Shown piece by piece: positions 47,086-62,841 of a DNA stretch of 64,000 nucleotides (positions are counted from its first letter, which is position 1; every line of letters starts with the position of its first letter). Made by a program: the position numbers and the translations under genes. The notes below the pieces were generated by a model. It had not been told where the DNA came from and searched no databases. It worked only from the letters and a program-made list of their open reading frames with translations. The stretch spans positions 62,001-126,000 of the forward strand of contig PKEX01000011.1 in NCBI GenBank assembly GCA_002919235.1, given 5' to 3'. The stretch is from Clostridia bacterium. GTDB lineage: Bacteria; Bacillota; Limnochordia; DTU080; RSA5.

Positions 47086-48192
47086 GTGGATTTTGTCTGC
47101 CAGCGGGACGATTTCGCGCGGGGGATCACGACAGTCGAACGGGCGGTATCCACCAAGGACAACATGCCCATCCTCGAGGGGATCTACATCCGGGCCCACC
47201 AGGATGGCCTGCAGCTCATCGCGACGGATCTCGAGATGAGCATCGAGTGCTCCGTGCCGGCCCGGGTCGAGCGGGAAGGGGCGGCCGTCCTCAGCGGCAA
47301 GGTGCTGGGCCAGATTGTCCGGAAGTTCGCCGGCAGTGAAGTGACCTACCGGACCGCCGAGAACGGGGTGGCGGAGCTCGCTTCCGGCCGCTCCCGCTTT
47401 TCCGTGCACACCATGCCCGAGGACGAGTTCCCGGCGCTGCCCGAAGTGGACGACGAGGAGATGTGGCGGATCCCCCAAGGCGCCCTCCGGCGCATGATCC
47501 GGCACACCGCGTTCGCCGCGGCGGCCGACGAGTCCCGGCCGTTTCTCACCGGGGTTCTCATCGAGGTGGACGGGGACGAACTGCGCCTGGTGGCCACCGA
47601 CTCCAACCGGTTGGCGTTCCACAAGGGAAAGCTCAGCCAGGGCGCCGTGCAGCCCCGGTCGGGGATCGTTCCCGTGCGGGCCCTGGTCGAGCTCATGCGG
47701 ATCCTCGACGCGGATGAAGACTCGGAGGTCGAGTTCGTCGTCTCCCACAGCCAGGCGGTGTTCCGCGCCCCGGGAGTGCAGATGATCTCCCGGGTGATCG
47801 AAGGGCAGTTTCCCGACTACCGCCGGGTCTTTCCCGGGCAGCAGCCGACCCGCCTCCGGGTGGATCGCGCCGAGCTCCTGGCGGCGGTGGAGCGGGTATC
47901 GCTCATCGCCCGGCGCAGCACGCCGGTGGTCCGGCTTTCGGTGAGCGGCAACAACCTGTCGCTGACCTCGCGGGAGGCCGAGGTGGGGCATGCCCTGGAA
48001 GAGCTCGCGGTGGTGAAAGAAGGAGACGACCAAGAGGCGGCGTACCAGTCCCGGTATTTGGCGGAGGCGCTGCGCGCGATGGACAGCGACGAAGTGGAAG
48101 TGGGCCTTGGACACGGTCTGAGGCAGGGAAGCATCGCGCCCGTCGGAGACGAAAACTATCTCTACATCGTGATGCCAGTGAGGGTGGGGTAA
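47086..48192 (+). CDS. dnaN: DNA polymerase III beta sliding clamp
   Basis: 368 residues. Three-domain clamp: begins VDFVCQRDDFARGITTVERAVSTK, then NMPILEGIYIRAHQDGLQLIATDLEMSIE. Middle: FAAAADESRPFLTGVLIEVDGDELRLVATDSNRLA. C-terminus ends YIVMPVRVG. GTG start with GGAGG eight bases upstream. A DnaA-like TGTGGATTT overlaps the start codon. Confidence 0.96.
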   Translation: MDFVCQRDDFARGITTVERAVSTKDNMPILEGIYIRAHQDGLQLIATDLEMSIECSVPARVEREGAAVLSGKVLGQIVRKFAGSEVTYRTAENGVAELASGRSRFSVHTMPEDEFPALPEVDDEEMWRIPQGALRRMIRHTAFAAAADESRPFLTGVLIEVDGDELRLVATDSNRLAFHKGKLSQGAVQPRSGIVPVRALVELMRILDADEDSEVEFVVSHSQAVFRAPGVQMISRVIEGQFPDYRRVFPGQQPTRLRVDRAELLAAVERVSLIARRSTPVVRLSVSGNNLSLTSREAEVGHALEELAVVKEGDDQEAAYQSRYLAEALRAMDSDEVEVGLGHGLRQGSIAPVGDENYLYIVMPVRVG

Positions 48193-48195
48193 AAC

Positions 48196-48450
48196 GTGAA
48201 CGCCAAAACTCGGGAAGCCCCGCAGGACGTGGTGATCCAGGGCACCGAGATCGAGCTGAACCAGTTTCTCAAGCTGACGCGAGCGGTGAGCACGGGCGGT
48301 GAAGGCAAGGCCCTGATCCAGCAGGGCGCGGTGAGGGTCAACGGGGAGATCGAGACCCGCCGGGGCCGCACGCTGCGGTCGGGCGACGTGGTGCGCCTGG
48401 CCGGCCGGGGCGTCTACCGGGTGAGAGGCGCCGATCAGGAGCCTTCGTGA
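48196..48450 (+). CDS. S4-domain RNA-binding protein (YaaA-type)
   Basis: 84 residues. IELNQFLKLTRAVSTGGEGKAL followed by GAVRVNGEIETRRGRTLRSGDVV is an S4 domain. In Bacillus the same gene (yaaA) sits between dnaN and recF. It probably binds RNA, perhaps 23S rRNA; the target is not shown. GTG start, three bases after the dnaN stop. Confidence 0.93.
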   Translation: MNAKTREAPQDVVIQGTEIELNQFLKLTRAVSTGGEGKALIQQGAVRVNGEIETRRGRTLRSGDVVRLAGRGVYRVRGADQEPS

Positions 48451-48451
48451 G

Positions 48452-49591
48452 GTGCTTTTGCAGCGGATCCAGCTCCAGCATTTCCGCAACTACCAAGAGC
48501 TCTCTCTGGAGTTTACCGCGAGCCTCAACCTCTTCGTCGGGGAGAACGCGCAAGGGAAGAGCAACCTCCTCGAGGGGATTTACCTCGCGGCGCTGGGACG
48601 CTCGTACCGGACCACCAATGACCAGGACCTGATCCAGTGGGGCGCTCCGTTCGCCAGGGTGCGGGCGGAGGCCGAGGGAGAAGCGGCCGGCTGCCGCATC
48701 GAGATTCTCCTCCCGCGGGAGGGGGCGAAGGAGATCCGGGTGGGAGGCCAGCCGCTGCGCCGCCACTCCGACCTCCTGGGCACGATGAACGCCGTGATCT
48801 TTTCCCCCGATGACCTGCAGCTGGTCAAGGGGGCGCCGGCGCTGCGGCGGCGGTTTCTCGACATCGAGCTGGCCCAGGTGAGCCCGGCGTACCGGCACCA
48901 TTTTGCTCGCTACCACCGGGTGCTGCGCCAGCGCAACAACCTTCTCAAGGCTGTGAACATCGGCAGCGCGGGGCGGGACGCCCTCGTTGAGTGGGACGAG
49001 CAGCTGATCGCCGACGGATCCCGCATCATCGCCAAGCGGGCGCGGGCGGTGCGCCGCCTCGCCGGCTGGAGCCGGGAGATGCAGCGGCGCATCAGCGGCG
49101 GCAGGGAAGAGCTGGACCTGGTCTACCGCCCGTTCTTCGCTAGGCCCGGCGAGGCGCCCGGGAGCGAGTGGGAGGACCCGGAGGCGGTGGCCCAGCGGTT
49201 CCGGGAGGCGCTGGCGGCCGTGCGCCGGGAAGAGGTGGTGCGAGCCACCACGCTGGTCGGCCCGCAGCGGGACGACATCGCCTTCATGGTGGGCGAGATC
49301 GACCTGCGCTACTTCGGCTCCCAAGGCCAGCAGCGGACCGCCGTCCTCGCCACCAAGCTGGCCGAGCTGGAGTTCGTCCGGGAAGAGACCGGGGAATACC
49401 CGGTCCTGCTGCTGGACGACGTCATGTCCGAGCTGGACGACGAGCGGAAAGCGCGCTTTCTCGAAACCGTCACGGGCCGGATCAACACCTTTATCACCAC
49501 CACCGGCCTGGAGAGCTTTACCCGGGAGATCCTGGAGCAGGCGGCGGTGTACCGGATCCGCGCCGGAACGGTCGTTCCGGAAAAAGTCTGA
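48452..49591 (+). CDS. recF: DNA replication and repair protein RecF
   Basis: 379 residues. QRIQLQHFRNYQELSLEF, Walker A GENAQGKSNLLEGIYLAALG, VIFSPDDLQLVKGAPALRR, GSQGQQRTAVLATKLAELE (signature) and LLLDDVMSELDDERKARFL (Walker B) are all intact. Loads RecA at ssDNA gaps. GTG start two bases after the S4 gene; together they form dnaN-yaaA-recF. Confidence 0.96.
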   Translation: MLLQRIQLQHFRNYQELSLEFTASLNLFVGENAQGKSNLLEGIYLAALGRSYRTTNDQDLIQWGAPFARVRAEAEGEAAGCRIEILLPREGAKEIRVGGQPLRRHSDLLGTMNAVIFSPDDLQLVKGAPALRRRFLDIELAQVSPAYRHHFARYHRVLRQRNNLLKAVNIGSAGRDALVEWDEQLIADGSRIIAKRARAVRRLAGWSREMQRRISGGREELDLVYRPFFARPGEAPGSEWEDPEAVAQRFREALAAVRREEVVRATTLVGPQRDDIAFMVGEIDLRYFGSQGQQRTAVLATKLAELEFVREETGEYPVLLLDDVMSELDDERKARFLETVTGRINTFITTTGLESFTREILEQAAVYRIRAGTVVPEKV

Positions 49592-49621
49592 TTTTAGGCG
49601 CGGTTGCGCCCCGGCGCGGGT

Positions 49622-49651
49622 TTGACAGTGCCAGCTAGAAAAGAATATTAT
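49622..49651 (+). promoter_or_regulatory. gyrB promoter
   Basis: TTGACA (49622-49627), 18 bases, TATTAT (49646-49651), then about 115 bases to the gyrB ATG. It gives gyrBA a promoter separate from recF. Confidence 0.85.
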
Positions 49652-49689
49652 AGAGATGTTGGGGTGGCCCGCACATCGTGTCACCCTGA

Positions 49690-51687
<1,998 letters not shown>

Positions 51688-51765
51688 CGCGACCTGCCGC
51701 CGGGGCCCGGCCGCCGGCGCGGGCCCGGTCCGTCCATCAGCTCTAGGGTGAAGGTGTGAGCGACA

Positions 51766-54216
<2,451 letters not shown>

Positions 54217-58011: not shown

Positions 58012-59289
58012 TTACGGCCGCTCGAGCGGAGCGGCCTCGCCGGTGAGCCGCAGGAAGCGAGCCTTCTTGAGGTTGTAGTCCCACAGGGCGGAAGCGGCGT
58101 TGAGCCGGGCCTCCATGGCCCGGCCTTCTTCTGCGAAGAGCTCCACCAGCGGCAACGTGCCGGCGTCGTGGCGGGTCCTCGCGATGTCAAGGCGCTGGAG
58201 CGCCAGCGCCAGCGCCTGCTCTTCCAGGCTGACATTCTGAGCCGCGGCGAGCAGGGCATCGTAGGCGAGGCGCACTTCCCGGCGGATAGCCGCCTCGGCC
58301 TCGGCCAGCCGGATGGCTGCCCGCTCCACCTCCATCTCGGCCCGCCGGACGTCGACGGCCGGGAAATCGGACAGCCTGGCCAGTTCGAGCCGGCGCTCCG
58401 CGGCCCGCAGCGCGAAGCGGGCCGCCGTCACGTCGCTGCTGGCCCTCACTGCCTTGTCCATCGCGCCGGCCAGGCTCACCTCGACCGGCGCAAACGCCAA
58501 GGCGTCACGAGACCACTGCAAAGGCGGCAAGGGATCGATGCCCGTGAGCTCGGAAAGGGCCCGGCGCGCCGCTTCGAGGCTCCTTTCGGCATCGTGCTGC
58601 GCGGCCGCCGCGCGGGCGTGGGAGAGCTCCACTTCCAGGAGGTCGACCTGGGAAAGCATCCCCGCTTCATGGCGCGCCCGGGCGACGGCCGCCCGGGCAG
58701 CGGCCTGCTCCGCCGCCCGCTGCCGGAGCTCTAGCAGTTCCTGGGCCCGCAGGACGTTGTAAAACGCCTCCTCCGCTTGCACGGCCGCGTCGGCCACGGC
58801 GCCTTCCAGTGCCGTGCGGGCCTGTTCCAGGGCGTGCTGGGCCTCGAGGTACGCTTCCAAGTCCCCTTCGGACTTCTTCACTTCGGCCGCGAGCAAGGCC
58901 AGTTCCGCCTCGGCTACCTGCAGCTCGGCCAGCCGCACGTGCGGCGAGACCCGCAGCGCCGCCCGGATGGCGCCGGCGAGATCCAGCCCGTCCTGCCGCC
59001 CTTCCGGCGCCGCATCGGCCTCTGCCGGACCCTGCGAGCTTTCCGTTCCGCCGGGGCCGGCGTGAGCCTGCCGGGCCGCAGTAAAGTCGAAGGCAAGGAC
59101 AGGGGCGCAGGCTGCGGCCACGAGAAGCGCCGCGAGCAGTCCGGCCGCGAGCAGTCCGCCTGCGTGCGCCCCAGCGGTACGGCCCCCGGGCTCGGGCCGC
59201 CTCCCGGCTGTCGTGACGAGACCTTCGATCCCCGCCTTCACCGGTGACTTCCCGGATGCCTTCCCGGATACCCTACCGGATGCCCTCAA
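58012..59289 (-). CDS. TolC-family protein apparently lacking beta-barrel strands
   Basis: 425 residues. Hydrophobic signal at about residues 45-66 ending APVLA. Two TolC/OEP repeats follow: repeat 1 from LDLAGAIRAALRVSPHV to the helix AGMLSQVDLLEVELSHA, repeat 2 from VSLAGAMDKAVRASSDV to AGTLPLVELFAEEG. In ordinary TolC each repeat has two beta strands between the first helix and the next; here those 50-60-residue parts are missing (KKSEGD runs straight into LEAYLEAQHAL, and FPAVDV into RRAEMEVERA), leaving helices. Start TTG overlaps the ATPase stop; a GTG at 59241 is possible. Last gene of the export operon. Confidence 0.8.
   Translation of the reverse strand: MRASGRVSGKASGKSPVKAGIEGLVTTAGRRPEPGGRTAGAHAGGLLAAGLLAALLVAAACAPVLAFDFTAARQAHAGPGGTESSQGPAEADAAPEGRQDGLDLAGAIRAALRVSPHVRLAELQVAEAELALLAAEVKKSEGDLEAYLEAQHALEQARTALEGAVADAAVQAEEAFYNVLRAQELLELRQRAAEQAAARAAVARARHEAGMLSQVDLLEVELSHARAAAAQHDAERSLEAARRALSELTGIDPLPPLQWSRDALAFAPVEVSLAGAMDKAVRASSDVTAARFALRAAERRLELARLSDFPAVDVRRAEMEVERAAIRLAEAEAAIRREVRLAYDALLAAAQNVSLEEQALALALQRLDIARTRHDAGTLPLVELFAEEGRAMEARLNAASALWDYNLKKARFLRLTGEAAPLERP
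59249..59284. repeat. Three tandem 12-bp repeats at the TolC-like start
   Basis: TTCCCGGATGCC, TTCCCGGATACC and CTACCGGATGCC in a row. They encode the Ser/Gly/Lys-rich beginning of the longest TolC-like frame and may indicate that translation really begins downstream (59241). Confidence 0.6.
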
Positions 59290-60074
59290 GGCTCCACATC
59301 CTCTGCAAACAGCGCGGCCTGGGTCTTGAGCAGCTGGCTCTGGGCGGTGGGCTCATCCGAGACGATCCGCCCGTCGCGAATGGTGAGCAGCCGCTGGCTC
59401 CACAGGGCGATGCCCGGGTCGTGGGTGACCACCAGCACGGTCATGCCCTGCTCGTTCAGCTCTTTGAGCGCCTGCATCACTTGGCGGCCCTGCTCCGTCG
59501 GGAGGTTTCCCGTGGGCTCGTCCGCAAAGAGCACCGTCGGCGCGTTGGCCAGCGCCCGGGCGATGGCGGTCCGCTGCTGCTCGCCGCCGGACATCTCGGC
59601 CGGCCGGTGGTTGAGGCGGTGGCCCAGCCCCACCTGTTCCAGCAGCTCCTTCGCCCGGCGGCGGCGATCCCGGGCGGGGACTCCCGCGTAGATCATCGGG
59701 ACCTCCACGTTTTCGACGGCGGTCAGCTCGGGGAAGAGGTTGTAATGCTGGAAGATGAAGCCGAAGTGGTCCCGGCGGATGCGGGCCAGTTCCTTGTCCT
59801 TGAGACCGGTCACGTCCACGCCTTCCAGGAGATACGACCCGCTCGTGGGCCGGTCGAGCAGCCCCATGATGGAAAGGAGCGTCGACTTGCCCGACCCCGA
59901 AGGCCCCATGATGGCCACGAACTCCCGGCGCCTCACCACCAAGTCGACGTCGCTCAGGGCGACCACCGGTTCCTTGGACTTGCCGTAGACTTTCGAGATG
60001 CCCTGGAGGCGGATCAGCGCCTCGGCGCTTCCTTCCTGCACTGCCTCGGGCACGGCATGGGTCTGTTCACTCAA
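59286..60074 (-). CDS. ABC transporter ATP-binding protein (MacB/LolD type)
   Basis: 262 residues. Walker A GPSGSGKSTLLSIMG, Q-loop FIFQHYNLFPELTAVENV, signature MSGGEQQRTAIARAL, Walker B VLFADEPTGNL, H-loop VVTHDPGIAL. This subfamily pairs with FtsX/MacB-type permeases. It overlaps the adaptor gene upstream by eight bases and the TolC-like gene by four, so translation is tightly coupled. Confidence 0.94.
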   Translation of the reverse strand: MSEQTHAVPEAVQEGSAEALIRLQGISKVYGKSKEPVVALSDVDLVVRRREFVAIMGPSGSGKSTLLSIMGLLDRPTSGSYLLEGVDVTGLKDKELARIRRDHFGFIFQHYNLFPELTAVENVEVPMIYAGVPARDRRRRAKELLEQVGLGHRLNHRPAEMSGGEQQRTAIARALANAPTVLFADEPTGNLPTEQGRQVMQALKELNEQGMTVLVVTHDPGIALWSQRLLTIRDGRIVSDEPTAQSQLLKTQAALFAEDVEP

Positions 60075-61461: not shown

Positions 61462-62841
61462 TCAGCTCTCGTGAAAGGCTTCGGCGGGCATCATGCGCGC
61501 CACGGTCCAGCCCGGATAGAGGGCGGCCAGCGCCCCGATGGCCACCGCGACCAGGACGGCGCCGGCCATGGTGATGACCACGTCCACCACGCCGGGCAGC
61601 TCCACGCGGAGCAGGAGCCCTCGGAGGAGGAAGAAGCGCACCGGAAACGCCAGCGCCACCCCGATCAGCCCTCCGATGCCCGCGAGGACCGCGGCCTCGC
61701 CCACGACCTCCCGCAAGACCCGAAAGCGGGTGGCTCCCAGCGCCCGCGACAGCCCGATGGAGCGAACGCGTTCGGCGACATTGGCAAGGAACGTGGTAAA
61801 GATGGAAAAGCCCGACACGATCAACGCCACGCTTCCCAGCGCGGCCAGGATGAGGCTGGTGGCCGCCTGCGCCACCCGCATGGTGTCGGCGCCCGAAAAC
61901 GCCGGCGTAACGGACAGCTGCTCCCCATCAGGCTCCCCGTCCCCGGCGGAGACGCCCCTGCGGGCTTCAACCCGCGCCGTGAGAAGCGCTTCCAGCTCGG
62001 CGACGGCCTGCTGGCCTGTTCCCGGTGCGACCCTCACGTACAGCTGTGCATACTCCCGGCCGGAGGGGATGGCCGCACCCGCGGGCAGCCCATCTTGATT
62101 CTCGCCGTCATCCGCGATGGCCAGCGGAAGGCCTGCCAAGGCCCGGAAATACTGGCCCGTGGCCGGGAGCAGGATTTCCAGCCGGACGCTCTCGGCGAAA
62201 AAGCCCATGAGCGGGTGCCCGCCTTCAGGGTAGGCGAAGACGCCGATCACCCGCACGTCGAGGCCGGGCGCCCCCTCGGTGGATACGAGCCGCGGTCCCC
62301 CCCAGCCCAGAATCTGCCTGAGCTCGTCGTCAGGGCGGATGTTGATCACTTGGCCGACGGCTTCTCCGCCGGGAAACAGCGTCTCCGCCAGCTCCCGGGA
62401 GATGACCGCCACCGCGGGCTCGCCTCCCTGGACGTCGGCGTCGTCGAAAAACCGGCCGGCCACCAGGCGCATGTCCGCCACGTCCTCAAATCCCGGGCTC
62501 ACCCAGGCGTAGCCCCGCACGAGAAAAAGGTCGCCGTTCGCTCGTACCAGGGCAAAGCTGTTGTCCTCGTACACCGACGCCGCGACGACGGTCTCCGCTT
62601 GGGATTCCAGAAACTCGACGTCGTCCAGCGTCCAGATGCTCGACATGGTGCGGGAGAACGGCTGGATCTCCCCGTAGATGACCGAAAAGACTTCCGTCTC
62701 GAGGCTTTCCACCCCCGAGCGCATCACCGGGACCACGTCGACGAAGACGGCCGCCACCACGGCAACGCCGATGGCCACCTGCAGGGCCGCGATCAGGTGG
62801 CGCACCCAGTGCTCGCTCAAGCGGGCCAACACGCGGCGCAT
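61462..62841 (-). CDS. MacB/FtsX-type ABC transporter permease
   Basis: 459 residues. N-terminal membrane segment, a roughly 250-residue extracytoplasmic MacB-PCD-like domain (VVPVMRSGVESLETEVFSV, FPGGEAVGQVINI), then three membrane segments of the FtsX domain with RVRSIGLSRALGATRFRVLREVVGEAAVLAG. No ATPase domain, unlike MacB itself. Second of two permeases in the operon; the pair could form a heterodimer. Confidence 0.92.
   Translation of the reverse strand: MRRVLARLSEHWVRHLIAALQVAIGVAVVAAVFVDVVPVMRSGVESLETEVFSVIYGEIQPFSRTMSSIWTLDDVEFLESQAETVVAASVYEDNSFALVRANGDLFLVRGYAWVSPGFEDVADMRLVAGRFFDDADVQGGEPAVAVISRELAETLFPGGEAVGQVINIRPDDELRQILGWGGPRLVSTEGAPGLDVRVIGVFAYPEGGHPLMGFFAESVRLEILLPATGQYFRALAGLPLAIADDGENQDGLPAGAAIPSGREYAQLYVRVAPGTGQQAVAELEALLTARVEARRGVSAGDGEPDGEQLSVTPAFSGADTMRVAQAATSLILAALGSVALIVSGFSIFTTFLANVAERVRSIGLSRALGATRFRVLREVVGEAAVLAGIGGLIGVALAFPVRFFLLRGLLLRVELPGVVDVVITMAGAVLVAVAIGALAALYPGWTVARMMPAEAFHES

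Follow-up and report, generated by a model that had tools for sequence, protein, structure and literature searches.

What could a protein of the TolC family do without the part that forms the outer-membrane barrel? The question is raised by a gene in a stretch of 64,000 nucleotides (the window; positions 62,001–126,000, forward strand, of contig PKEX01000011.1, assembly GCA_002919235.1) from a Clostridia bacterium of the GTDB class Limnochordia. The gene lies in a MacAB-type operon and encodes a barrel-less outer-membrane efflux protein (OEP). Among relatives, as well as in Deinococcus and Thermus, such a gene is nearly always found beside one for a barrel-bearing TolC, which points to an overlooked pump segment: the barrel-less protein would act in the periplasm of diderm bacteria, as the fourth component of their efflux pumps. 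We give this reading a probability of about 0.5.

The 425-residue window protein starts with a hydrophobic N-terminal Sec-type signal region, followed by a mature part of about 359 residues. The Pfam OEP profile (PF02321) matched it in two stretches (E=1.6e-23), of which the best covered only profile positions 84–187; in the genome search the two stretches began at 84 and 85, and the strand half of the profile was unmatched. The initial annotation had claimed that both TolC repeats are kept and that the strand segments are cut out of each, and the comparison with E. coli TolC bore this out. The spacing, counted as the residues between equivalent helix anchors (H2 to H3) within each repeat, was 53 in the window protein versus 92 in E. 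coli TolC for repeat 1 and 52 versus 104 for repeat 2, which leaves 39 and 52 residues missing. The claim that the mature protein is nearly all helix also agrees with the AlphaFold2 monomer model (mean predicted local distance difference test score, pLDDT, 90.9; predicted template modelling score 0.83; 43 sequences in the alignment), which has two 65-residue helices and no strand of three or more residues. In the positive control, a full-length OEP of the same genome modelled by the same protocol (P0003), strands in both repeats and 67-residue helices were obtained. All 44 Foldseek matches of the window model at E≤0.001 were TolC/OprM/CusC-type proteins, and TolC-family chains ranked first in a profile search of the PDB. 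The adaptor-facing tips are kept as well (AGMLSQVDLLEVE and AGTLPLVELFAEE), with a G.[TS]..[DE]-like pattern conserved at both. The two homologous repeats, long helices and equatorial insertion of the OEP family are present, and barrel strands are absent from each repeat. These results confirm that the window protein has the TolC fold without the outer-membrane barrel.

The shortness of the protein could suggest, as the single point in favour of it, that the gene is a decaying or truncated OEP copy without function. The comparison covered 43 loci of the host class, 20 loci of other Omp85-positive families and 20 loci of Omp85-lacking genomes; they were picked by a match to the barrel-less protein, not by their neighbouring genes, and the label monoderm is given here by the absence of Omp85 as the sole criterion. 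All 63 barrel-less copies from Omp85-positive genomes had a spacing of 50–54 in repeat 1 and 50–52 in repeat 2, and most class copies were just 19–37% identical to the window protein. In full-length OEPs, where measurable, the repeat-2 spacing was mostly 73–130. With this spacing shared by 63 divergent copies, the deletion of the strands is not a matter of chance. The open reading frames (ORFs) are intact, and the barrel-less profile matched 57 of the 61 genomes of the host lineage. Over the sampled phylum it matched 255 of 398 genomes, although a part of them gave only partial matches, which may stem from full-length OEPs; Omp85 was present in 102 of the same 398. A degenerate copy was therefore rejected on the conserved geometry and the spread among relatives, which contradict decay and leave it a negligible chance. 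The barrel-less protein is a family and not a decayed copy. One Bacteroidota sequence (L015), which resembled a distant relative, has strand-like segments between its helices and was read as full-length.

The neighbours of the barrel-less genes were consistent over most of the comparison. In 61 of the 63 Omp85-positive loci, the cluster also contained a full-length OEP gene on the same strand, together with RND (resistance-nodulation-division) or MacB-type transporters. It began directly downstream of the barrel-less gene in 52 of the 61, often with overlapping reading frames, and stood elsewhere in the cluster in the other nine, whose partners were assigned by reading the ORF listings (for L061 and L125 the listed OEP replaced an automatically picked adaptor). 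The host genome itself encodes two further barrel-less OEPs, both followed immediately by a full-length one: the first locus reads adaptor, AcrB-type RND transporter, short OEP and full OEP (L009), and the second short–full pair is close to a contig end (L010). Among the 63, only the window and L048, a relative from the same family, lack such a partner. At the Omp85-lacking loci, no full-length OEP partner was found in the gene cluster in any of the 20. Nineteen of these (L126–L142 and L144–L145), most of them in RND operons, had a repeat-1 spacing of 64–72 versus 50–54 in the diderm copies, which amounts to about 10–18 extra residues, with nothing extra in repeat 2; L143, with a repeat-1 spacing of 90, was excluded from the counts of 19. 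Two unusual ORFs were seen among the loci compared. In genome G091, a 716-residue ORF reaching the contig end (L112:7370-9517, minus strand) lies directly upstream of a barrel-less OEP. In it, the C-terminal portion of an AcrB-type RND transporter runs on into a full two-repeat OEP, either as a real fusion or through a lost stop codon. In genome G169, which has no Omp85, a second OEP of 501 residues (L128:1266-2768, plus strand) has a barrel-less repeat-2 spacing of 52 and may carry an extra domain.

The tandem, often overlapping gene order and the correlated divergence of barrel-less proteins and their partners (Mantel r=0.75 over 57 pairs, with 0 of 5000 permutations as high) would also suit mixed trimers or an assembly factor: the barrel-less protein would then be built in among full-length OEP subunits, or act as their chaperone, without forming a ring of its own. 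We consider this quite unlikely. One barrel-less protomer swapped into the trimer removes a third of the strands of a 12-strand barrel, a pure chaperone would have no need of conserved adaptor-facing tips, and the protein persists in Omp85-lacking genomes without a clustered full-length partner.

The pairing is also found in another phylum. When plasmids were searched by tblastn with P0002, matches were obtained in plasmids of Thermus oshimai and Deinococcus. Each of the four plasmid loci inspected has two adjoining TolC-type genes, followed by an adaptor and an RND transporter. The first TolC-type gene is the longer one, and where Pfam was run it showed two OEP stretches. The second has spacings of 52/51 and the loop DNDYTPA, a loop type that also occurs in barrel-less proteins of RND operons in the host class (DNDYTPE in P0002). 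Two of these genes carry the label hypothetical in the D. grandis annotation. The periplasm of D. radiodurans is reported as 121 nm (PMC9388160).

Whether the host has an outer membrane decides the fate of the proposal in the initial annotation, namely a pump re-worked for a monoderm cell. On this reading the barrel was lost for want of an outer membrane, and the cell wall or S-layer would be traversed or capped by the tube. Two observations favour such a duct. Barrel-less relatives without a full-length partner exist in Omp85-lacking genomes, and TolC-like proteins with the barrel omitted were described from monoderm Firmicutes, with docking in the S-layer proposed (Stubenrauch et al. 2022; PMC8809574). 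The host genome argues otherwise. It is 2.24 Mb in size and 99.45% complete, with a contamination estimate of 0.87%, and profile searches found Omp85/BamA (E=1.5e-47), LpxC (E=6e-94) and a weak LptD_N domain above the cut-off (E=3.7e-5), besides two normal full-length OEPs. PF04453 gave no match to LptD in the host genome, which is uninformative because this profile matches only 2 of 14 control genomes. LpxC is encoded no more than about 6 kb from an LptD_N-type domain (G000:C23:3882-10313), and the two probably belong to an outer-membrane gene cluster. Limnochordia have been described as diderm (PMC11456536). The gene content thus indicates that the host is a diderm, and the monoderm reading is rejected for this genome; it would need the outer-membrane genes to be binning contamination and is very improbable. 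The initial annotation had named, among the observations that would speak against its own proposal, outer-membrane genes in the same genome together with a normal-length TolC alignment; the former were found and the latter was not, the window protein being shorter. The monoderm idea may still hold for the Omp85-lacking organisms with barrel-less relatives.

For diderm hosts, the fourth-component reading can be put as follows. It draws on a TolC helix framework that lacks just the strands, the almost fixed spacings, the full-length OEP in nearly all Omp85-positive clusters and in none of the 20 Omp85-lacking ones, the divergence of barrel-less and full-length partners in step, the matching pairs in Deinococcus and Thermus, and the outer-membrane genes of the host; the pairing is observed, and a duct segment is the simplest way to read it. 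TolC trimers dock through their lower tips on six adaptor hairpins. Three barrel-less copies would most likely assemble into a tube of 12 helices as in TolC, with a length of about 10 nm; the helices in the monomer models are of nearly equal length, 65 residues in the window protein versus 67 in the full-length control. The lower tips, unchanged from TolC, would dock on the hexameric adaptor. The upper end would present six short helix-loop-helix turns at the former strand sites, a number equal to that of the adaptor hexamer, and would meet the outer-membrane TolC, the one with the barrel, at its lower tips, so that the duct would be lengthened between adaptor and TolC. Constraint on the family is consistent with two working ends. 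Mean information per column was 1.28 overall, 1.65 and 1.82 in the tips and 1.74 in the repeat-2 loop, and from these values the tips and the repeat-2 loop look constrained.

Since no partner gene stands beside the window gene, its pump has to borrow a partner or else stop in the periplasm. We infer the former, the shared partner being either of the two full-length OEPs whose genes lie at other sites in the genome; E. coli likewise shares TolC among several pumps. In the alternative, the window pump stops short of the outer membrane and the barrel-less tube is its sole exit duct, into the periplasm or a wall layer. This is suggested by the lack of a full-length OEP beside the barrel-less gene in both the window and the nearest relative L048, but the closest operon relatives do have one, adjacent in L051, L082 and L063 and within the operon in L057 and L058, and the full-length OEPs elsewhere in the genome could be shared. 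We regard a pump that stops short as rather unlikely.

Several findings weigh against a fourth pump component. The window operon and its nearest relative have no adjacent full-length OEP, so that joint encoding of barrel-less and full-length OEP is not seen at the very locus under study. Conservation of the repeat-1 loop does not exceed the average (1.21 vs 1.28), and the repeat-2 loop of the window protein, SDFP, differs from the NDYTP-like loop that motif comparison found in many relatives. Correlated divergence is also expected from shared operon inheritance and is no proof of contact. Some Omp85-positive genomes gave just weak matches to the barrel-less profile, and not all diderms of the phylum may need the protein.

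In the tree, the Omp85-lacking copies formed one group (98/94) placed among diderm lineages. A clade of the diderm copies alone appeared in 0% of 200 bootstrap trees, although the approximately unbiased (AU) test did not reject it (p 0.144). It is thus favoured, but not established, that the Omp85-lacking copies fall within the diderm ones. A single clade of all barrel-less proteins was not rejected either (p-AU 0.935 with 140 rows and 0.0997 with 79 rows), and a single origin is neither established nor excluded by these tests. A bolder extension of the four-part pump, which we hold to be doubtful, is that the upper end imitates the adaptor hexamer, so that rings could stack on TolC and even on each other, as a duct of adjustable length in diderms whose periplasm is very wide. 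In monoderm Firmicutes, the barrel-less TolCs would then descend from a spacer that predates the loss of the outer membrane and not from later loss of the barrel.

The operon around the gene is as the initial annotation had described it, with a MacB-type ATPase, two permeases and a MacA-type adaptor upstream (Table 1). PF00005, PF12704/PF02687 and HlyD_3/RND_mfp domains were found in this one operon, which makes it MacAB-type. The adaptor exceeds the Pfam OEP cut-off (26.5 bits, residues 122–195) because of its helical hairpin. Elsewhere in the window, a dnaN-resembling ORF followed by recF-, gyrB- and gyrA-like ORFs on the plus strand (47086-54216, by reading of the ORF list) suggests that the window is near a replication origin.

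Table 1. Features of the barrel-less OEP gene and its operon (positions in the window).
Feature	Position	Strand	Basis
Barrel-less OEP (TolC-fold) protein, 425 aa, TTG start	58012..59289	-	ORF list, Pfam, AlphaFold2, Foldseek
Loop in place of repeat-1 strands, residues 140-143, SEGD, between modelled helices	58861..58872	-	AlphaFold2 and spacing
Loop in place of repeat-2 strands, residues 307-310, SDFP	58360..58371	-	AlphaFold2 and spacing
Adaptor-facing tip, repeat 1, AGMLSQVDL	58639..58665	-	Sequence; G/[TS]/D conserved in relatives
Adaptor-facing tip, repeat 2, AGTLPLVEL	58138..58164	-	Sequence; conserved in relatives
MacB/LolD-type ATPase, 262 aa, overlaps OEP gene by 4 nt	59286..60074	-	Pfam etc.
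MacA/HlyD-type periplasmic adaptor, 455 aa	60067..61434	-	Pfam etc.
MacB-core/FtsX permease A (ADOP-like), 459 aa	61462..62841	-	Pfam etc.
MacB-core/FtsX permease B, extends beyond window edge (471-aa ORF in contig C5)	62852..64000	-	Pfam and contig

Barrel-deficient TolC proteins are already known from monoderm Firmicutes. A tandem of full-length and barrel-less TolC was not found reported in the open-licence PubMed Central (PMC) papers searched, nor was such pairing found described for diderm Bacillota and Deinococcota. In the annotated records examined, the genes are named just TolC family protein, transporter or hypothetical, and these generic names hide the architecture. With TolC, OprM and CusC (PF02321; TIGR01844) the window protein shares the two-repeat fold, the long helices, the equatorial spacing and the adaptor-facing tips, but it has no strands in either repeat and scores 58 bits against TIGR01844, versus a cut-off of 225. 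The proteins of Stubenrauch et al. (2022; PMC8809574) are likewise barrel-omitted and encoded in operons with other pump parts. They were described as the sole TolC and placed in the S-layer, whereas the window protein belongs to a diderm host, not a single-membrane cell, and its relatives pair with a full-length TolC. The Omp85-lacking relatives found here probably correspond to those proteins. The origin of the barrel-less TolC of monoderm Firmicutes becomes testable in this way, as it may have served as a partner in diderm ancestors that still had their outer membrane.

That a tripartite pump can take on a further part is illustrated by YbjP, a lipoprotein that partners TolC in E. coli (PMC13082787). 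Unlike the barrel-less protein, YbjP has a DUF3828 fold, binds beside TolC and is dispensable for efflux in standard laboratory conditions (PMC13082787). As in MacAB-TolC and AcrAB-TolC, transporter, adaptor and TolC-fold component are encoded together in the systems compared here; unlike the fused MacB, the window ATPase and permeases are separate proteins, and the additional barrel-less TolC-fold gene brings the kinds of parts to four. Should the barrel-less protein indeed serve as a duct segment, pumps built from four kinds of parts would exist in two or more diderm phyla, a point of interest for how efflux machinery spans wide envelopes such as that of D. radiodurans.
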